Positions 8,027-22,604 of a DNA stretch of 35,162 bases are shown here, piece after piece (the first letter of the stretch is position 1; the number at the start of each line of letters is the position of its first letter). The notes under the pieces were generated by a model, which saw only the letters and a list, made by a program, of their open reading frames with translations, was not told where the DNA came from and made no database searches. The position numbers and the translations under genes are program-made. The DNA is taken from positions 1 to 35,162 of IMG/VR virus record IMGVR_UViG_3300030104_006524. One strand, 5' to 3'. This DNA is from a virus.

Positions 8027-8502
8027 TTAAAAAAGAAGTTAAAAGATTTGTTGAGCTTATGAAATCTAACCCTGATGATTTTAGGGTTAGGAAAATTGCT
8101 GGATCGGCGCATGATATTTTTTTTCCTAAAATAAGCCCTTTTTATAATATAGAGTCAGGAACAAAAGAATGGCATTTAAATTTTTGGAACACAAATTGGT
8201 TCATTGAGTTAAATTTTTATGAGAGAACAACCACTAGTCCTGAAATAAGCCATCGTTTACAATATAATTTAAATATTATAGAAAGGTTTTTTTTAAAACG
8301 TAATTTAAAAATTCATTTAAATGTAGAACTTAATCGTTCTTTATTATTTCATCCATATAAGTCAAAGTTATCAGCATTGAAAAGTAAATTTTTTTTGTTA
8401 CTTAAAAATATTTTTAACATAAAAAAAAATGCATGGATAATATCTATAGTTTTACAATTACTTACAATCGGCTTAGTTTTGTATATGGGGGTTAAATCAT
8501 GA
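8023..8502 (+). CDS. Unknown tail-anchored membrane protein, 159 aa
   Basis: Soluble N-terminal part (residues 1-130) with W/F-rich strands (EWHLNFWNTNWFIELNFYER) and a C-terminal membrane helix (about residues 136-155) ending YMGVKS, so a tail-anchored inner-membrane protein. Start overlaps the YopX stop (ATGA); stop overlaps the resolvase start (ATGA). Family not recognised. Confidence 0.65.
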   Translation: MIKKEVKRFVELMKSNPDDFRVRKIAGSAHDIFFPKISPFYNIESGTKEWHLNFWNTNWFIELNFYERTTTSPEISHRLQYNLNIIERFFLKRNLKIHLNVELNRSLLFHPYKSKLSALKSKFFLLLKNIFNIKKNAWIISIVLQLLTIGLVLYMGVKS

Positions 8503-9131
8503 CTAAACGAAGAGAAATATTCGGTTATGCAAGAGTATCTACCAACCAGCAGAGTTTAGATATTCAAATTGCGGCGCTGGTAAACAAAGGTTGTCTTGAG
8601 GGAGATGATCCACAGCGCATTTTCACTGATATGGAATCTGGTAAAAGCATGGAAAACAGAGACGGATTAAATAAACTTTTAGCAAGAGTCGAACGAGGTG
8701 ACATCATTTATATTAAGAAACTAGACCGCTTAGGTAGGAATACTTTAGAGATGCTAGAAGTGATTGAAGAACTTAACAGCAGAGGCGTTTCAGTTAATTT
8801 TATTGACGATCACTTAAGCACCGAAGGTGAAATGGGAAGAATGGTCATTACAATTCTAGCAGCGGTAGCGGAAGCGGAAAGGTGTCGGATAATGGAGAGA
8901 ACCAATGAAGGACGGCGCGCAGCTATTGCCAGAGGAGTAAAAATGGGCAGAAAAGTTCTTGCTACTCAAGCCAAAATTGACGAGATTATGAAGCTCACCA
9001 ACGAAAAAGACCAGTACGGCAAACCTGTCCATCCAGTCAAAGAAATATGCAAGAAAGTTAATTTATCTTTCTCGACAGTTATGAAGATTCGGCAGTCCCA
9101 AAAAAAGAAGGCTAAAACAGCAACTGATTAG
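8499..9131 (+). CDS. Small serine recombinase (resolvase/invertase family)
   Basis: 210 residues. Catalytic domain: GYARVSTNQQSLDIQ with nucleophile S14 and R12, KKLDRLGRNTLE with R77 and R80, then ILAAVAEAERCRIMERTNEGR and the E-helix basic region ARGVKMGRK. The C-terminal ~40 residues (HPVKEICKKVNLSFSTVMKI) form the helix-turn-helix. Length and layout are those of Tn3 resolvase/Gin-type enzymes, not large serine integrases. In a plasmid-like phage it would resolve dimers; inversion of a fibre segment is an alternative. It is the last gene of the early operon, directly followed by an inverted repeat (9144-9195) that may be its site. Confidence 0.9.
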   Translation: MTKRREIFGYARVSTNQQSLDIQIAALVNKGCLEGDDPQRIFTDMESGKSMENRDGLNKLLARVERGDIIYIKKLDRLGRNTLEMLEVIEELNSRGVSVNFIDDHLSTEGEMGRMVITILAAVAEAERCRIMERTNEGRRAAIARGVKMGRKVLATQAKIDEIMKLTNEKDQYGKPVHPVKEICKKVNLSFSTVMKIRQSQKKKAKTATD

Positions 9132-9680: not shown

Positions 9681-9782
9681 AAATAGTGCAGAATAGTGCA
9701 TATTAGTGCAGTTTGATGCAGAATAGCGCAGGTTTTTGAGAAAAATAGTGCAGTTTAGTGCATATTAGTGCAGTTTAGTGCA
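9681..9782 (+). repeat. 10-bp iteron array, 5 + 4 copies
   Basis: Five head-to-tail 10-base units (9681-9730), a 12-base spacer, and four more (9743-9782). Unit form is NNNTAGTGCA, for example TATTAGTGCA at 9701-9710 and 9763-9772; the fourth and fifth units vary (GATGCA, AGCGCA). The 10-base period puts every unit on the same face of the helix, as for iterons bound by a replication initiator or for centromere repeats. The array ends six bases before the stop codon of the minus-strand 147-aa gene. One further perfect unit lies at 10585-10594. Confidence 0.85.
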
Positions 9783-9788
9783 GGTCAG

Positions 9789-10584: not shown

Positions 10585-10594
10585 TATTAGTGCA
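10585..10594 (+). promoter_or_regulatory. Isolated iteron copy over a start codon
   Basis: TATTAGTGCA, identical to units at 9701-9710 and 9763-9772, with its last base being the A of the ATG of the replication operon's first gene. No other ribosome site is obvious here, so a protein bound to this copy would be expected to interfere with initiation or early elongation, a simple feedback loop. Identity is seen; control is inferred. Confidence 0.5.
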
Positions 10595-11064
10595 TGGAAA
10601 AAACTCTACTAACAAAAAAGGAATTGGGCCAAAAATTAGGATTAGGCCGTTATGCTGTTAACAATCTAATTGAAACAAAATTGTGTGATGCTGTTGTTAA
10701 TGTTGGCCAAAGACAACTTTACAATTTTAAAACTGTCAATCAGCTACTATCTAATAAAAAAGCTAAAACAAAATCAGTTATTGGTCAACAGATTTTAGCT
10801 GAATTTAATAAAATAGCCAGCTCAAAATATAAAAACATTAAATCTATTAACCTTATCGAGAACCTTCTCGAAATAGGGTACATAAAAGAGGATATCTTAT
10901 TAGTTGCAGAGCATAAGGTGTATGAGTCTGACCAATTTAACGGATTTCCTTGTTCTAAAAACCCAGTTGGTTTTCCTAAAAAACACATTTCGCCCAGAAC
11001 ATTATATAACCCTGAAAAGTTTGAGTCATATTTGAAAAGTGCAAGAGGGGCTTTGAATGAGTAA
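10594..11064 (+). CDS. Replication-region DNA-binding protein with Phg_2220_C-like end
   Basis: 156 residues. N-terminal helix-turn-helix of the excisionase/AlpA type: LTKKELGQKLGLGRYAVNNL then VNVGQRQLYNF. C-terminal part (residues ~110-152) contains NPVGFPKKHISPRTLYNPEK then FESYL, matching the R-P-x-T-L-F-x-x-x-x-F-E-x-Y-L end of the Phg_2220_C domain found on phage replication proteins. First gene of the replication and recombination operon; overlaps the next by 8 bases. Probably an origin-binding or replisome-assembly protein, and a candidate iteron-binder. No ATPase motif. Confidence 0.6.
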   Translation: MEKTLLTKKELGQKLGLGRYAVNNLIETKLCDAVVNVGQRQLYNFKTVNQLLSNKKAKTKSVIGQQILAEFNKIASSKYKNIKSINLIENLLEIGYIKEDILLVAEHKVYESDQFNGFPCSKNPVGFPKKHISPRTLYNPEKFESYLKSARGALNE

Positions 11065-11614
11065 ATTTAAATCCTTTATTGATAATCAATGCCCTTTCGT
11101 TGAGGCCTTGTCTGAAATTGGCGATTTTCTTCATGCCCCAAAATTGAACGACACCATCAAAAATTATGCGCGCAAATTAAAAGAACAAGGATTTACTGTA
11201 GACGAAGTCCAAAAGGCAGTTCAGCGCATTATTAACTCTTTTGATAGGTTTCCTTCTTATCCTGAACTTAAACGTATCGTGACAAGCTGCAAAGAGCCTG
11301 TTAAACAGGAAGAAGAAGAAATTATACCTCGTTGCGAAAAATCACACGCTAGATTTATATTCTGTCAAGATTGTATGGCTGTAATGGATTTACATTGCGG
11401 GGAAGTATGTGACTATCTAACCCTGCATAAAATAGAAGTCCCTGAAAATTATTTAGAAATTGTAAAAACAACGCCTAAATTAGATATGGTTAAGTTAATT
11501 TTAGGTGAGGGTATTTACAAAATCCGCAAAATTAAGCGTACAGAGTTTAATAACGTTCTTAGCAAAACATCCAAAAAATCGGATAAAAAAGAGGTCGAAA
11601 ATGAAAAAGCATAA
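11057..11614 (+). CDS. Putative replication accessory / helicase-loader-like protein with zinc knuckle
   Basis: 185 residues. Residues ~15-80 are helical with DRFPSYPELKRIVTSC, a segment resembling the W-P-P-T-x-x-E-F-x-x-x-C region of lambda P-type and other phage replication proteins. Residues ~95-125 carry CQDC and CGEVC (with H113), a probable zinc-binding knuckle. The basic K/E-rich C-terminus is likely disordered. Position directly after the HTH replication protein supports a role in loading the host helicase. The likeness is by motif and context, so moderate. Confidence 0.5.
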   Translation: MSKFKSFIDNQCPFVEALSEIGDFLHAPKLNDTIKNYARKLKEQGFTVDEVQKAVQRIINSFDRFPSYPELKRIVTSCKEPVKQEEEEIIPRCEKSHARFIFCQDCMAVMDLHCGEVCDYLTLHKIEVPENYLEIVKTTPKLDMVKLILGEGIYKIRKIKRTEFNNVLSKTSKKSDKKEVENEKA

Positions 11615-14868: not shown

Positions 14869-15088
14869 GAATGTTGATATAAAATTAAAGGAAAATTATG
14901 TCAATGAAAATGGACATAAATGCAAGCAAGAAATTATTTTTACACATAATGAGAATGAATTTTTAAAGATTAAAATTGGAGGGTTTATAATGAATGAGGA
15001 AACTGTAAGAACAGATTATTTTTTTCATAAAAGATTTTTTGACAACCTTAAAAAATTTCTTCAAGATTCAAGCTCATTCTCCTCATAA
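14858..15088 (+). CDS. Unknown protein, 76 aa, last gene of the replication operon
   Basis: ATG at 14858 chosen because GGGAG lies eight bases upstream; the longer frame from 14828 has no such signal. Beta-rich (MQIKNVDIKLKENYVNENGH; EFLKIKIGGFIM), ending in a serine-rich SSSFSS. Its last 28 bases overlap, tail to tail, the minus-strand winged-helix gene. No family recognised. Confidence 0.6.
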   Translation: MQIKNVDIKLKENYVNENGHKCKQEIIFTHNENEFLKIKIGGFIMNEETVRTDYFFHKRFFDNLKKFLQDSSSFSS

Positions 15089-16266
15089 TAAGCAATCAAT
15101 GCCGCTTTACGATGGATAAATGTATTTTCCTCAGGGCTTAATTTCGCAAGTATTTCGTCTTTTTTTTGTGGATTAAGCCCATCACACCAAACTCTAAAAT
15201 TTTCTTCTCTCTGTCGATCTTGGATAGCTCTCAATCGATCCTGTTCTTGGTAATGTGCCATCATTTCTTCCGCTTCTTTTTGTTTTTTAAGAATTTGGAC
15301 TTTTTCGGGGTCGTGAAATGATCCGCCATCTAGGCTTGTTGACATGAAGTAACTTTTTTTATTTTTAATTTCTCTTCTAAATTTTTCATCATTTTCCAAA
15401 CGATATGCAAATCCATGAATTGATTGTTGAAATTCTGCTGATGTTAATTTTCCAGCCTTGTAAATATTTTTCAAATCGTTCATTCCAAAATAAATTTTTT
15501 CATTTAGTTTGCAAAAATCGATTGATTGCCAATCGGATGGAAGTTCTGTTGTTGTTGTTATTTCATTATTGTAGTTATAACTACTACTACAAGGGGCTTT
15601 GTCTACAGTATCGTCTACAGTATCGTCTACAGTTTGTCTACCATTTGTCGCTAGTTTGTCTCTTAAAATTGTCATTTCCTTATAAGTATTTTTGTCAATT
15701 TCATATATTGTCCATCCGTATCTTCCAGCTTTGTATTTATATTTACTAATTATTCCTTTATCGCGAAGTCTTAAAATGCTTTTTTTTACTGAGCGTATGG
15801 GTGTTTTTGCAGTTTCAACCAATTCTTTTATTGATATTTTTTCACTTAAAAAACTCTGTGTTTTAATGCAGGAAAAATATATATATATTGTTATGGCTCG
15901 TTGAATCCCTTGCAAATCATTAAATGGAAATTTTTCGATATGTTTGTCTACAGTATCGTCTACAGTATCGTCTACAGTTTGTCGCCAGTTTGTCGCCAGT
16001 TTGTCTACAGTTTGTCTACCATTTGTCGCCAGTTTGTCTACAGTATCGTCTACAGTTTGTCTACAGTTTGTCGTTAGTTTGTCTACAGTTTGTCTACCAT
16101 TTGTCGCCAGTTTGTCTACAGTTTGTCTACCATTTGTATCAGATTTACTTTCACTTTCCTTTTGATTTTTTTCCCGATATTCTTCAAATTTATCGTATTT
16201 TTTAGGGTCGTGAACTTCTTGGAAAATGGCGTTTAAGGCAAGGTATGTGCTATTGTCTTTAGCCAT
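15061..16266 (-). CDS. ParA-linked winged-helix protein with repeat linkers (putative partition or replication protein)
   Basis: 401 residues. Residues 1-43: short charged start. Residues 44-107: linker of TNGRQTVDKLA-type units. Residues ~108-203: a winged-helix DNA-binding domain (ISIKELVETAKTPIRSVKKS, then ILRLRDKGIISKYKY). Residues 204-222: a second short stretch of the same repeat. Residues ~235-330: LPSDWQSIDFCKLNEKIYFG and a helical domain like those of ParA-linked plasmid proteins, then a coiled coil and LNPQKKDEILAKLSPEEN. Its ATG directly follows the parA stop, so the two are one operon. The linkers are coded by 11/12-base DNA repeats (separate entries). It may be the ParA partner (ParB-like adaptor) or a replication initiator; I cannot decide between them. 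Confidence 0.6.
   Translation of the reverse strand: MAKDNSTYLALNAIFQEVHDPKKYDKFEEYREKNQKESESKSDTNGRQTVDKLATNGRQTVDKLTTNCRQTVDDTVDKLATNGRQTVDKLATNWRQTVDDTVDDTVDKHIEKFPFNDLQGIQRAITIYIYFSCIKTQSFLSEKISIKELVETAKTPIRSVKKSILRLRDKGIISKYKYKAGRYGWTIYEIDKNTYKEMTILRDKLATNGRQTVDDTVDDTVDKAPCSSSYNYNNEITTTTELPSDWQSIDFCKLNEKIYFGMNDLKNIYKAGKLTSAEFQQSIHGFAYRLENDEKFRREIKNKKSYFMSTSLDGGSFHDPEKVQILKKQKEAEEMMAHYQEQDRLRAIQDRQREENFRVWCDGLNPQKKDEILAKLSPEENTFIHRKAALIAYYEENELES
15601..15657 (-). repeat. Second cluster of the 11/12-bp repeat, 5 units
   Basis: Plus-strand units: GTCTACAGTATC twice (12 bases each), then GTCTACAGTTT, GTCTACCATTT and GTCGCTAGTTT (11 each). The first three units are in the same order as the start of the larger cluster at 15946. 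It lies in the same gene, after the winged-helix domain, coding residues 204-222. Confidence 0.85.
15946..16135 (-). repeat. 17-unit array of 11/12-bp direct repeats inside a reading frame
   Basis: Plus-strand consensus GTCTACAGTTT. Fourteen units are 11 bases (variants GTCGCCAGTTT, GTCTACCATTT, GTCGTTAGTTT) and three are 12 bases (GTCTACAGTATC at 15946, 15958 and 16036). Because 11 is not a multiple of three, the same DNA unit is read in all three frames: three 11-mers give an 11-residue DKLATNGRQTV-type unit, while a 12-mer gives DDTV. A DNA-level period near one helical turn suggests a protein-binding array (centromere or origin iterons) rather than a protein repeat alone. Confidence 0.9.
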
Positions 16267-17220
16267 TTACATCCCCATTTCATTTCGTAGTATGCTTTCT
16301 CTAATTTCTTTTTGTTTTTTCAACTTTTCTTCTTTGTGTTCTTTTTGGATCTCTTCCTGTCTAAGTTGAAATTGAAGTCGTAACAATTTTTCTTTTTTTT
16401 CTTCGCTGTACCAAACATCAGTTTCAGCATTAAGACTATCTAAACTAGTTACTTTAGCTAAAAATTCTTCAGCTAAAGCCTTAAAATCTTCACGCCCACA
16501 ATGGTGGGTTCTCGAACCCTTCATTTCAGATTGAACTTTACGTTGCGATAGGGCATTAGGAATTAACGTAGTCCTTCTGATTTTAGTCTCAAAAACAAGC
16601 CCAGGTCGATTTTCATAAAGACTTTTAACATAAAATTTACTCATTTTATTGTTATAAACAAATTGGTTTATCAAATAACCTAAATTTTTAACTTGAGAAT
16701 CATATTTTTCTTTGACGTATTGAATATAATTTTCAACTTTCATTAGTCCTTTTAAAGAAAAATTACACTCAGATAAAACGGGTATTATATAATAATCAGA
16801 AGCTATCAAAGCACACGTAACAAATGGATAGATACCTGGATGTGTATCCATTATTACATAATCAAACTCCTTTTTAATTTTTTTACTTTTATGAATAATA
16901 TTTTTAAGGCAGTCCCACGGTTGGTTACTTGCTTGAATGTCGTACTCAATTAAAGGAATGTTATCTGATCCCTGTACAATTGAAATATTTTTATACCTTG
17001 TTGGTAAGATCGCAGAATCAATTAAACTATAATCCCTAAAAACTTTCTCAATATTAAAATCATCTAACTTGTCAACAAAAAACTCAGTTAAATTTAACTG
17101 GTGGTCAAGATCAAACAATAACACCGAATAATCTAGCTTGCTTAATTGATGCGCCAAATGTATGGATGTGCTGGTTTTGCATACCCCTCCTTTATGATTT
17201 AAAAAACTTATAACTTTCAT
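16267..17220 (-). CDS. parA: ParA-family partition ATPase
   Basis: 317 residues. Deviant Walker A HKGGVCKTS with signature K10 and K15 (C14 replaces the usual glycine), A' motif LLFDLDHQLNLT (D37/D39), Walker B YVIMDTHPG (D125), then SDYYIIPVLSECNFSLKGL. C-terminal ~50 residues are an added K/E/Q-rich coiled coil (EEKKEKLLRLQFQLRQEEIQ). The lack of an N-terminal HTH matches type Ib or chromosomal-type ParA. It would bind non-specific DNA with ATP and move the phage genome as a plasmid, with a partner bound to a centromere; the adjacent gene and its repeats are candidates. ATG chosen by AAAGGAG upstream. Own promoter candidate just upstream. Confidence 0.88.
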   Translation of the reverse strand: MKVISFLNHKGGVCKTSTSIHLAHQLSKLDYSVLLFDLDHQLNLTEFFVDKLDDFNIEKVFRDYSLIDSAILPTRYKNISIVQGSDNIPLIEYDIQASNQPWDCLKNIIHKSKKIKKEFDYVIMDTHPGIYPFVTCALIASDYYIIPVLSECNFSLKGLMKVENYIQYVKEKYDSQVKNLGYLINQFVYNNKMSKFYVKSLYENRPGLVFETKIRRTTLIPNALSQRKVQSEMKGSRTHHCGREDFKALAEEFLAKVTSLDSLNAETDVWYSEEKKEKLLRLQFQLRQEEIQKEHKEEKLKKQKEIRESILRNEMGM

Positions 17221-18700: not shown

Positions 18701-19129
18701 TTTACCTTCTCCTTTTTTTGTTATTTCCAAATTAATTTTTTTATCAATTAATAAAAATTCAATTAATTTAGAATATAATTTTAAATATGTTGGCCTCGAA
18801 ATTCCTAAGCATAAATCTTCCTCTTTTCGTTCTTTTGCCATTGCTATACAACCTTTAACTTCATATGGCTTATTAGCGGGATGAAATAAAATAAAATCAC
18901 GGCCATCGATAATTATTTCGATCATTCCTTTAAAACCACCTGTATAATCTGTTTTTTGTCTTTCTTTATTGTACCAACCTCCTTGTTTTCTTAATGCTAA
19001 TGGATGTTTTCCTTCGGCTATCTTGTAATCGTCATTTTCCAACGTTTCACAAAAATACAGGCCATCAACATATAATTTGCCAAATTGCGCATCAGCAATA
19101 CATTTATCTCTTATTAATTTAATTTGCAT
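18260..19129 (-). CDS. DUF5675 domain fused in frame to a holin-like membrane domain
   Basis: 289 residues. Residues 1-~135 match DUF5675 (FGKLYVDGLYFCETLENDDY; then KHPLALRKQGGWYN, GFKGMIEII, FILFHPANKPYEVKGCIAMA), a domain often beside phage lysis genes. Residues 144-289 look like a separate phage holin: FNLGLGAIGNIASKV, an A/K/Q-rich helix, KTIMDEVLALTILFIFIG (first membrane helix, ~225-243) and FFQFIFIGIFVSTFGLMG (second, ~258-278), basic tail. The join KKGEGKM is coded by an AAAGGAGAAGG ribosome site followed by an ATG at 18700, so the second part can also be made alone. Fusion seen directly; which products are made is inferred. Confidence 0.65.
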   Translation of the reverse strand: MQIKLIRDKCIADAQFGKLYVDGLYFCETLENDDYKIAEGKHPLALRKQGGWYNKERQKTDYTGGFKGMIEIIIDGRDFILFHPANKPYEVKGCIAMAKERKEEDLCLGISRPTYLKLYSKLIEFLLIDKKINLEITKKGEGKMFNLGLGAIGNIASKVTGVMEKKEEFKMLQAENAYKIAEAKGRLALAKVEAESQMVTAQSQNDASYDMVALKQKEKTIMDEVLALTILFIFIGAFIPGLQPYIFRGFGILEETPWFFQFIFIGIFVSTFGLMGLFRAFIKMKRMGK

Positions 19130-22100
19130 ATTTCTCCATCCCTATTTTTATTTTTTGTAATGTTTTTTTATGACTCCCTTTAATAAATGATTGAGCCTCT
19201 TTTTTTGATACTTTTTCTTTTTTTAACAACTGTAATATTTCATTATCTTTAACCCCTAAATAACGGGCAGCATCAATATGCTCTTGCATCCACGCATAAC
19301 TTCTTTTCATTGCATTCATTTTAGAATTAATGTCTTTAAACTCGCCTGCTTTATAAGATTCTCTTTTTTTCTGTTTAAATTGATCTACTTTAAATTGTAA
19401 TGATTTTGGAATGTCGTAAGTAGACATTCTTACCCCCGTTGTCATTGCTCTAAATTCACCTTTTAAACTGTTGATATTTCCATAATAACCTGGCTTTCCG
19501 TCTTGTTTTTTTAATAATCTTCTTGTTGAAGATGAAATTCCAGGCTCATATACTTTTACAATATGACCAATTTTTTTCGTGATTTTAGATAACCTGTCGT
19601 CCATTTCGCTATATATGGGACGACCTTGCTTTGTTTTGTTTCTTGAAATATCCATTATTGCCGAAGTCAACATTTCCTCACTTATAAAAGGCCCTAACAT
19701 TTCAGTAAAAGCACCTACAAAACGATCATCTAAATCTTGATCCCCTCTCATAAAAGCAATAAAAGGTTTAGCTAGAAATGCATGAGGAGCTTGAGTCCCT
19801 AAATCTATATACGAAAATCTTTTTTTATCCCTATCAAACCCAGTAATAACTAAAGGACTATTAACTGACCATTCAGGTATAAATTTTCTGATATTATCCT
19901 CATCCTCTTTCTTTGTACCGGTAATCATTCGGCTAATTAAAGGGGCTGCATATGCCGACATTGCCACCATTGCCGCAAAACCCCCAAGTCTTTTTATCCC
20001 AATATTTTTTGTATTGCTGTTTTTCATTTCTTCTTTCGCTATATTTAAAGTGTGGTAAGACGTTCTAATTACTTCAGCAGGAAAATTTACAAATGTACCA
20101 ACTAAAGGTGATTTTCCTATGTATTTAACACCTTCACTAACCCTTGAATAAGTAGGATAAGTATTTTTAACAATCTCTGCTGATAATTCCTCTATTTCAA
20201 ATTTAGACATTTCAGGACGTGCTTTTTGTTGTTGAGCTACCTCATTTTCAAATGCGTATATCTTCCAAACAGTATCCGAGGCTTGATATATTTGACTTAA
20301 TTTATCTAAACCTTTATATAATTTTTTCTCTGCTTGAGACTTAGGCTTTTTAACCATTTCTATAGCAACTCCAATATCACTGCTTTGATCGATTAATCCT
20401 AGTTCTGCTAACCTTAATAAATATTCACGGTTTTTAGGGTCTGTATTATTAAGCAATTTAGTTTTTATTGAAGAAAAAGCGCTTGGCATTTTTTTAAAAT
20501 TAAAATGACCATTCCCAAGGGCAAATGCTGTATTGGATGTTAGGTTTCGTATTTGTGTAACAGGACTACCAACGGTTTTTGCCCATTTTGCATAGCCCAT
20601 TCCTTTTAAATATAATCCTAATGCAGAATTATTATTTTCAGGCTTACTTTGCAGAGCTTCGGCAATTTCTTTTGTTGTGTACATGTCATTTAGAGGTGAG
20701 TAGGATTCACTTTTAGCAATAGGGGTTACAAACTCAACGCCATCTACAATATCTTTTTTCTTAAATAAAAACTTACCTTCGCCCGCTGCTTTTATTTCAG
20801 TTAAAAACTGGTGATTAGCAAGTAAATTACTCATTTTTCCAACTGTATTTGCAAAATTAATATCAGGCTCAGTTATTTCACCCAGTAAATCTAGCATTTC
20901 TTGCGGCATAACTTTTCGTTTTTTAAGTATCCCTAAGTTTTTTGAACCTGTTTTTTTATTAGTATAAAAATCACCTAAATGGTCACTATGTTGTTCTAAT
21001 ATTGACGCTACCTCAGCCTCAATTTGAGTATCCGTCATATCTTGATCTTTAAGCTCTGATCTCATCCAAGAGATAGCCTTATTCCACGCTTCGGTTTCTC
21101 TTACATTTTTAATCCAATTAGGATCACTATGTATTTTGTAGGCACGGTTAATATAAACGCCCATATTTGTATCAATTGCAGCCTCAAGTTTACCTTGTGC
21201 TAACCCCTCATCAATCATTTTTTTTGATAAAGAATCAATTGTTTTTCTCATTTCTTTTAAAGGCTCATAAAATTGACTTAATTCTGAATCATTTTCAAGT
21301 TTAGCCATTGCATCTGTACTTTTAAGGGCTTGGTCTAATTTAAGCGTTTGCTCTGGTGTTATAGTTTGTTTAAATTCTTTTTTTACTCGGTTAAAATCAG
21401 CTAATTTAAAATTTAACTCTTGTGCATCTTTAGATATACGACCTAACCTTTTTTCGTTTGCTTTAAATATTTCAGACGGGACCCCTTTTTCTTTAGTGAA
21501 ATATTTTTGTCCAAACGCTTTTAATTTTGTTGGTTTTCCATCTGCTAAATCAAGAATATCTTTCGCTCTGTTTTTAATTGGCTTTTTTTCATTTAAAGTT
21601 AATGTCGTGTCTTTTTCTTCTATTATTTTAGCTTCTTCTTTTGCCTCAGACTCAATTTCTTCTTCAATTGCTATTTGTTCTTTTTGAGGGGGTGTTAAAT
21701 CCTCTTGTTTAATATTATCTAATTTTGTTTTCGCTCCACCAATAGTGCCACCTACAATACCGCCAACTAATGCTGACCTACCCACACCTTCAAATGCTGG
21801 GTCTTCTGCTGCGACATTAGATATAATTTGCTGAATTCCTTCCTGAGTCGCTTCTTTTGATGAGCCTTTTAACATATTTGTTATGAATTTGCCTCCTGGC
21901 ATTTTTCCGAACATCCATTTATCTAAAACCATATTTGCAGGAATATTCGCCCAAAATGCTGCGTTTGCCCGATCCCCTGCTTCTTTTTCGTCCATGCCTT
22001 TTTCGATTAAACGATCATATACGCCACCAGACTCAACCCCAGATTCAATAATAGCGGACGTTCCTGTTCCTAGCATTGCCCCAACTTTAGGGGCTAATTT

Positions 22101-22604
22101 TAATACTTGTGCGCCTTTAGCTACACCTAATCCTGGAATTAAAAACGTAGCAGCTGAACCAAATCCACTAGCCACATCAGTAGCCAAGCTAGGGTTTTCT
22201 ACTTCCAAAGCATCCAATACAGGAGTAGTTACCTTTTTAATTGCGTCACCCGCAGAAGATGTCATGTTTGCTAATAATTCATTGCCAAATATTTCACCAT
22301 CATCACCTAATGATTTAAACATTGCCCCTAAACTATCAACTGTTCCTACGGCTCCGCTTACAAATGATTTTTCTAAATCAAATGATGGCTCTTTTGGATT
22401 AAAGTCTTTTGGTTTTTCAACGCCTAGTTTTTTTAATAAGGAAAAGTTTTTAGTTGGGGGTTTAGGTTTTTTTTCTTCAATAATACTATCTAAGAAATTA
22501 GGTTTTTTACTAGTTGGTTTTTCTTCTTCAATAATACTATCTAAGAAATTGGGCTTTTTACTAGTTGGTTTTTTTTCCTCAATAATACTATCTAAGAAAT
22601 TCAT
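19119..22604 (-). CDS. Large internal virion (ejection) protein, 1161 aa
   Basis: Begins with three tandem 17-residue units (NFLDSIIEEKKPTSKKP), then a region rich in G and A with amphipathic/membrane-like helices (SFVSGAVGTVDSLGAMFKSL; ALVGGIVGGTIGGAK near 280-295; MVAMSAYAAPLISRMITG near 870). The middle and end are long helical stretches. Its size, place at the end of the virion cluster directly after two smaller ejection-type proteins, and composition fit the large ejected protein of short-tailed phages (as in P22 gp16 or T7 gp16, by role). No transglycosylase motif is obvious. Overlaps the DUF5675 gene by 11 bases and starts on the stop of the upstream gene. Confidence 0.65.
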   Translation of the reverse strand: MNFLDSIIEEKKPTSKKPNFLDSIIEEEKPTSKKPNFLDSIIEEKKPKPPTKNFSLLKKLGVEKPKDFNPKEPSFDLEKSFVSGAVGTVDSLGAMFKSLGDDGEIFGNELLANMTSSAGDAIKKVTTPVLDALEVENPSLATDVASGFGSAATFLIPGLGVAKGAQVLKLAPKVGAMLGTGTSAIIESGVESGGVYDRLIEKGMDEKEAGDRANAAFWANIPANMVLDKWMFGKMPGGKFITNMLKGSSKEATQEGIQQIISNVAAEDPAFEGVGRSALVGGIVGGTIGGAKTKLDNIKQEDLTPPQKEQIAIEEEIESEAKEEAKIIEEKDTTLTLNEKKPIKNRAKDILDLADGKPTKLKAFGQKYFTKEKGVPSEIFKANEKRLGRISKDAQELNFKLADFNRVKKEFKQTITPEQTLKLDQALKSTDAMAKLENDSELSQFYEPLKEMRKTIDSLSKKMIDEGLAQGKLEAAIDTNMGVYINRAYKIHSDPNWIKNVRETEAWNKAISWMRSELKDQDMTDTQIEAEVASILEQHSDHLGDFYTNKKTGSKNLGILKKRKVMPQEMLDLLGEITEPDINFANTVGKMSNLLANHQFLTEIKAAGEGKFLFKKKDIVDGVEFVTPIAKSESYSPLNDMYTTKEIAEALQSKPENNNSALGLYLKGMGYAKWAKTVGSPVTQIRNLTSNTAFALGNGHFNFKKMPSAFSSIKTKLLNNTDPKNREYLLRLAELGLIDQSSDIGVAIEMVKKPKSQAEKKLYKGLDKLSQIYQASDTVWKIYAFENEVAQQQKARPEMSKFEIEELSAEIVKNTYPTYSRVSEGVKYIGKSPLVGTFVNFPAEVIRTSYHTLNIAKEEMKNSNTKNIGIKRLGGFAAMVAMSAYAAPLISRMITGTKKEDEDNIRKFIPEWSVNSPLVITGFDRDKKRFSYIDLGTQAPHAFLAKPFIAFMRGDQDLDDRFVGAFTEMLGPFISEEMLTSAIMDISRNKTKQGRPIYSEMDDRLSKITKKIGHIVKVYEPGISSSTRRLLKKQDGKPGYYGNINSLKGEFRAMTTGVRMSTYDIPKSLQFKVDQFKQKKRESYKAGEFKDINSKMNAMKRSYAWMQEHIDAARYLGVKDNEILQLLKKEKVSKKEAQSFIKGSHKKTLQKIKIGMEKYAN
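22449..22601 (-). repeat. Three tandem 51-bp repeats coding an N-terminal peptide repeat
   Basis: Three successive 51-base units (22551-22601, 22500-22550, 22449-22499) code NFLDSIIEEKKPTSKKP, NFLDSIIEEEKPTSKKP and a diverged third, NFLDSIIEEKKPKPPTK. The DNA copies are very alike, which points to recent tandem duplication. The F-L-D-S-I-I-E-E words could be docking peptides in the virion. Confidence 0.85.

Follow-up and report, generated by a model that had tools for sequence, protein, structure and literature searches.

A two-gene operon of a phage, consisting of parA and the adjoining gene 2, probably forms a ParA-type partition module whose centromere is located inside the gene for its own centromere-binding protein, with the phage itself probably persisting as a plasmid. 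With somewhat less confidence, we consider this module to represent a widespread and apparently unrecognised class, in which the centromere lies within the winged-helix (wHTH) gene, flanking the binding domain left and right, and in which specificity and target make up one cassette that is swapped among phages and plasmids to yield new incompatibility groups.

The parA-gene 2 operon and its internal arrays

The window, i.e., the whole stretch of 35.2 kb that was analysed, belongs to a 42-kb IMG/VR virus record, which also codes for a P22-like portal protein. The stop codon TAA of parA is followed at the next base by the ATG of gene 2 (junction GATGTAAATGGC), in agreement with the initial annotation, in which ParA was described as the adjacent gene. 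The same two-gene operon is present in plasmid records, and a separate gene for a ParB adaptor was not seen. The window ParA carries the P-loop KGGVCKT, lacks the N-terminal HTH extension, and is 97% identical across 259 residues to the ParA of a sister phage (L005). The two differ in length (317 aa in the window and 263 aa in L005), the window copy having an extra charged C-terminal tail (16267-16440, minus strand, compared with L005 1741-2532). The P-loop glycine preceding the catalytic lysine is swapped in many of these ParA proteins (window, L005, L014-L018, L032, L033, L038, L042, and L047), the variants being KGGVCKT (window and L005), KGGVYKT (Legionella), KGGVLKS/T (Piscirickettsia and others), KGGVAK, and KGGASK. 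Elsewhere in the window, a 51-bp tandem repeat of 2.7 copies (22465-22601) is located at the start of a gene for a 1161-aa protein (19119-22604, minus strand) and codes for NFLDSIIEEKKPTSKKP repeats. The positions of the features under discussion are listed in Table 1.

Table 1. Features of the window, with positions, strand, and the observations on which each assignment is based
Feature	Position	Strand	Observations
Serine resolvase/invertase, 210 aa, possible multimer resolution	8499..9131	+	Pfam Resolvase E=5e-37
TAGTGCA array, 10-bp steps, near Phg_2220_C	9684..9783	+	Conserved in L005 sister phage record 10236-10318 (-), equal 42-bp gap
Phg_2220_C, candidate phage replication initiator	10594..11064	+	Pfam E=9e-8; PHROG replication initiation protein E=1.5e-8; also in sister phage
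Gene 2, proposed centromere-binding protein, 401 aa	15061..16266	-	Open reading frame; junction; parA-adjacent homologues
C-terminal helical domain, residues 241-401	15064..15546	-	92% identical in L005 (segment identities); AlphaFold2
Array 2, six direct repeats (11, 11, 11, 12, 12, 11), array-1 word	15597..15664 (runs 15664 to 15597)	-	
Winged-helix domain, residues 112-207	15646..15933	-	AlphaFold2 pLDDT about 90, H-H-H-E-E-H; PDB matches
Array 1, direct repeats in 17 contiguous units (14 of 11 bp, 3 of 12 bp), predicted disordered linker (pLDDT about 25-30)	15942..16131 (runs 16131 to 15942)	-	
N-terminal tail, residues 1-42	16141..16266	-	98% identical to L005 (segment identities)
parA, Walker-type partition ATPase, 317 aa	16267..17220	-	Pfam AAA_31 E=8e-34; PHROG 'ParA-like partition protein' E=1e-47

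The core of array 1 can be written as [T/G]GTAGACAAAC / TGGCGACAAA[C/T] / TGTAGACGATAC. Recounting gave the same 17 units, 14 of 11 bp and three of 12 bp, as in the initial annotation, with the register shifted by 4 bp (15942-16131 instead of 15946-16135), and the word is indeed read through all three frames, as claimed there, in the 401-aa open reading frame at 15061-16266 (minus strand). A total of 20 word sites were identified in gene 2 by allowing up to two mismatches, against 0.5 in dinucleotide shuffles, and TAGACAAACTG, with up to one mismatch allowed, was found nine times in the 42-kb record, each time within gene 2. Arrays 1 and 2 (190 bp and 68 bp, respectively) sit on either side of the wHTH-coding stretch; array 2, located after the winged-helix domain, had been overlooked. 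Six loci that differ in their words share a distance of 283 bp across the wHTH-coding part. The 12-bp steps seem non-random, several arrays finishing with 11, 12, 12 ahead of the final unit (window 15942-15976 and 15597-15631; L005, L032, L033, L041, and L047).

In an AlphaFold2 model built on an alignment of 11 homologues, the gene 2 protein starts with the tail and ends with the C-terminal domain, and between them the winged helix is flanked on each side by an array-coded linker. The array-encoded segments are predicted to be disordered (pLDDT about 25-35) and most of the helical C-terminal domain is modelled with pLDDT 80-90. The arrays may be tolerated within gene 2 because they code for disordered linkers. 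Two strands of the wHTH model make the wing, and on comparison with PDB structures this region aligns with winged-helix proteins, including AspA of plasmid pNOB8 (4rs8; Z 8.7, rmsd 3.2 over 81 residues), a match with which many MarR/ArsR proteins are tied; as modelled, the wHTH is a generic fold. When the wHTH was folded alone without an alignment, the pLDDT was 50 and the model was set aside. A sequence search of PDB gave no match above noise. The N-terminal tail is suggested to contact ParA, and the C-terminal helical domain is suggested to take part in either ParA contact or oligomerisation.

Homologues, 11-bp spacing, and the pairing of word with winged helix

Searches with the whole gene 2 protein identified one relative on a viral contig and, by tblastn, two plasmids (Bdellovibrio and Cardinium), and none among annotated phages. 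The matches were few because the repeats dominate the protein and the words differ. With the Bdellovibrio protein as query, plasmids of Piscirickettsia, Legionella, and Fluoribacter were identified; this single protein gave no match against genome contigs or viral contigs. An alignment of the wHTH domain as query detected 24 genome contigs, and two more scans added further viral contigs. The homologues identified with the wHTH are located on plasmids of Bdellovibrio, Legionella, Piscirickettsia, and Cardinium, on other proteobacterial contigs, and on other phage contigs. Directly upstream of the gene thus found, parA was present in 17 of the 17 bacterial contigs having upstream DNA (two further ones end before it), and a ParA-type ATPase adjoins the gene in all the plasmid and viral homologues inspected. 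Five euryarchaeal wHTH hits (L036, L039, L040, L043, and L045), none with parA upstream, served as controls without parA and arrays. A recognised Rep gene is absent from several of the host plasmids, including pBdHAGR4, and for three P. salmonis plasmids no replication mechanism was inferred (PMC6963756). Opposite parA, across the upstream array, plasmids of Legionella anisa and Piscirickettsia carry a divergent gene for an HTH protein of about 350 aa (L048 35729-36805; L049 22886-23911); this protein, which gave HTH matches only, is a candidate replication initiator.

Nearly every homologue has its own 11-bp word, with sites in all three frames. The words include GTAGACAAACT in the window, AGACAAAACAG in L005, AGAGACAAACT, TAGTTCAAACC, and ATTAGCCAGTC on the Bdellovibrio plasmids pBdHAGR4, pBdHAGR5, and pBdHAGR3, respectively, AACGGAACACA, AAACCGAACAC, and AAAGGGGTAAC in Piscirickettsia, and AACGGTTCACA in Legionella. 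For neighbouring sites up to 16 bp apart in 25 homologous genes, the spacing was 11 bp (233 cases) or 12 bp (37 cases) and no other, and the three frames were used 155, 151, and 112 times. One exception outside this 25-gene count is the viral contig L051, with spacing of mostly 12 bp in the gene and 13 bp outside. Another homologue, L019 from Piscirickettsia, has no 11-bp array. Its parA-gene 2 operon is flanked by 37-bp tandem arrays of 9.7 and 5.7 copies (749-1107 and 2785-2995), apparently in opposite orientation, possibly representing another type of centromere.

The demand of the protein sequence on the repeats was estimated by holding each protein fixed and resampling its codons 400 times per gene, with the lag-11 identity as the score. 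In 22 of 22 genes the observed identity exceeded all 400 resamples (z 4.0-11.4), the window value being 0.601 against 0.425 after resampling (z 7.4), with 20 sites against a mean of 6.7. The 11-bp word is present in excess of what the protein sequence demands in all these genes, and the same DNA is dual coding.

The word is also located in non-coding DNA. Upstream of parA, in the orientation of the array, there are 8-17 sites in Legionella and 6-15 in most Piscirickettsia types, against 0.04-1.04 in shuffles. A gammaproteobacterial contig (L031) has 15 upstream copies on the other strand, and L051 has eight in an intergenic stretch downstream of the gene. On the Cardinium plasmid (L007) the array is absent from the gene, and seven copies of an 11-bp word are found only upstream of parA (11058-11220); this upstream array shows a 44-bp higher-order repeat. 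The phage and Bdellovibrio-type systems have 0-2 upstream sites per 1.2 kb, both strands considered, and 14-24 sites inside gene 2.

The initial annotation had proposed a DNA-level role for the array, to be refuted by homologues with protein repeats kept and DNA repeats decayed. The opposite was found: the homologues keep the 11-bp period while both word and peptide change. The codon resampling and the non-coding copies in Legionella and Piscirickettsia point in the same direction, and the proposed role at the DNA level is supported.

Comparison of homologous pairs indicates which part of the protein the word follows. The window and L005 proteins share 98% identity in the tail and 92% in the C-terminus, but only 27% in the wHTH, and their words agree at 7 of 11 positions, both arrays of L005 carrying the other word. 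Likewise, pBdHAGR4 and pBdHAGR5, plasmids of a single strain, code for proteins with 90% identity in the C-terminus and 35% in the wHTH (word 6/11), and L032 and L046 for proteins with 72% and 29% identity, respectively (word 7/11). The converse was observed for L041 and L044 (wHTH 69%, word 10/11, C-terminus 29%) and for L033 and L047 (wHTH 61%, word 9/11), for which the C-terminal domain is not shared. By the Mantel test, word similarity correlated marginally with wHTH identity (0.39, p=0.042), and no correlation was seen for the identity of the C-terminus (-0.07, p=0.68). As far as these comparisons go, the word tracks the wHTH and not the C-terminal domain, the simplest reading being that the wHTH reads the word.

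Proposed mechanism, known systems, and alternative explanations

From these sequence relationships we infer that parA and gene 2 make up a partition module of the plasmid kind, in which the gene 2 protein is the partner that binds the centromere. Its winged-helix domain would bind the 11-bp direct repeats within its own coding sequence, and the protein would load at about one per helical turn (11 bp, with some steps of 12 bp), so that a nucleoprotein filament would form along both arrays (190 bp and 68 bp). The filament would meet nucleoid-bound ParA through the N-terminal tail, the C-terminal helical domain, or both, and the ATP cycle of ParA would move the DNA. The binding domain and the arrays may be exchanged as a unit, creating a new compatible specificity, with the ParA-facing ends staying in place. 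The compatibility of the ParMRC plasmids of Clostridium depends on the repeat specificity of their binding proteins (PMC9426499). Three plasmids with the present module, each with a different word, live together in one Bdellovibrio strain, HAGR004, in line with the expectation for compatible partition systems. Neither a tyrosine nor a large serine integrase was found in the 42-kb record, which may be incomplete, and no tyrosine integrase in two more viral contigs of about 39.6 kb; the absence of integrase fits weakly with a plasmid-like prophage.

Two features of type I partition systems are present, a ParA-family Walker ATPase in the operon and an adjacent partner with a predicted DNA-binding wHTH. 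Type Ia was rejected, as searches of Pfam, PHROGs, and NCBIfam with the thresholds applied gave no ParB/Spo0J (PF02195) match for either the window protein or its relatives. The type Ib systems (TP228 ParFGH and pSM19035 delta/omega) are similar in having a Walker ParA and a small partner in one operon, a direct-repeat centromere, and a flexible tail on the partner, and the array is located upstream of the operon in the Legionella, Piscirickettsia, and Cardinium relatives. The partners known from type Ib are, however, ribbon-helix-helix proteins with the centromere outside genes (PMC5016525), whereas the gene 2 protein is modelled as a winged helix with a wing, on which ground the ParG/omega type was rejected, and in phages and Bdellovibrio plasmids the sites are inside the gene. 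The archaeal AspA-ParB-ParA system of pNOB8 resembles the present one in that a winged-helix centromere-binding protein, to which the fold matches no better than to MarR/ArsR proteins, spreads on DNA within a ParA system; the target of AspA, however, is a 23-bp palindrome that lies upstream of the AspA gene, and AspA requires ParB as the adaptor to ParA (PMC5120986), in contrast to 11-bp direct repeats inside the gene and no ParB seen.

Type III systems resemble gene 2 in that the winged-helix protein TubR binds short direct-repeat blocks of tubC, sometimes split in two (PMC5016525). They differ in having the tubulin-like motor TubZ and tubC upstream of the operon; TubZRC was rejected on the basis of the adjacent motor gene, which codes for a Walker ParA. 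The likeness to parC of plasmid R1 (type II), raised by the initial annotation, stands with respect to repeat length, parC having ten 11-bp direct repeats in two regions (PMC9426499; PMC5016525), but fails for motor and partner: R1 uses the actin-like ParM and the ribbon-helix-helix ParR, with parC around the operon promoter and not within a gene, and ParMRC of the R1 type was rejected for the same adjacent Walker ParA. In parCAB of Myxococcus pMF1, ParA works with a protein that has no known relatives and binds repeat iterons located in part within open reading frames; its motif, however, is AGATGTCT, the sites are in other plasmid genes, and no tandem array in the binding-protein gene was reported (PMC3235114). 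None of the known partition types fits, and the module may be classified as a variant of ParA-type partition. Within the literature covered, most subscription journals being outside, neither a centromere inside a parB gene nor a winged-helix ParA partner with 11-bp repeats was found.

Alternatively, gene 2 might code for a replication initiator, with the arrays as an internal origin of iterons in the initiator gene and parA merely alongside. Such an arrangement has a parallel in lambda O, a replication initiator gene carrying its own iterons inside, and the likeness to gene 2 lies in the location of binding repeats within the gene of the DNA-binding protein; lambda O differs in its role in replication, in its few longer iterons, and in the lack of a ParA partner. 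Foldseek comparison with viral models detected the lambda O N-terminal domain, replisome organizers, and DnaD-like proteins (E down to 2e-6), with phage replication initiators prominent among the viral matches; the relatives give weak sub-threshold Pfam matches to Phage_rep_O and DnaD_N, and pBdHAGR4 has no recognised Rep. Moreover, RepA and the origin of PLE show equal covariation of the DNA-binding domain with the repeats and a conserved C-terminus (PMC8263062). Against these points, no replication family was matched by the window protein itself when Pfam, PHROGs, and NCBIfam were searched with the thresholds applied, and the divergent HTH gene on the Legionella and Piscirickettsia plasmids could be Rep. 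Iterons at origins are usually few and longer, and the 23 sites at about one-turn spacing resemble centromeres instead. The phage has a separate candidate initiator, Phg_2220_C, beside its own TAGTGCA array (a candidate phage origin or regulatory site). Two observations place the initiator reading below partition: the neighbour that stays constant is parA, and the sister phage has retained both Phg_2220_C and the TAGTGCA array despite the exchange of the par cassette. We regard it as unlikely, and gene 2 could also have a double role in partition and replication initiation. The description of a compact partition or replication unit carrying its own array, given in the initial annotation, is still the best one, with partition favoured.

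Partition is also preferred over two readings without segregation. If the arrays were an operator only, the protein would repress its own operon or a nearby promoter; centromere-binding proteins often autoregulate, and the upstream arrays of the relatives sit where a par promoter is expected. A simple operator, however, needs neither two arrays flanking the wHTH nor parA as a constant partner, and the 14-24 sites of the phage and Bdellovibrio type are located downstream of the operon promoter, making this explanation quite improbable. Even less credible is a repetitive linker at the protein level, grown by slippage or unequal crossing-over and without DNA function. Recent duplication likewise yields DNA identity beyond that of the protein and could give an equal lag-11 excess, and higher-order units of 33, 45, or 48 bp are present in some arrays. 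Duplication alone is insufficient, however, because the identical word sits in separate non-coding DNA. As an 11-bp unit shifts the frame with each copy, it cannot be maintained by selection acting on the peptide. Disorder is predicted for the array peptides, and across the 25 genes the words change while the period of 11 or 12 bp and the layout stay. A pure protein repeat was rejected on the basis of the codon test and the non-coding copies.

Implications for plasmids and phages

If the proposed partition module is correct, partition specificity would be legible from sequence alone, each gene showing the word that its protein binds, and a dozen or more natural pairs of wHTH and word would be available for the study of DNA reading by winged helices. 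Protein and centromere would be physically linked, a single exchange transferring a working pair of specificity, and this would help explain how several related plasmids share one Piscirickettsia or Bdellovibrio cell. The gene would also be a clear example of dual coding: a DNA repeat that shifts the frame is retained in a gene through its placement in disordered linkers. The combination of parA followed by an open reading frame with 11-bp repeats would provide a search rule for plasmids and phage-plasmids of poorly known bacteria. The design recurs with differing words on plasmids and phages of several bacterial phyla, and in these elements the gene for the binding protein probably doubles as the segregation handle.
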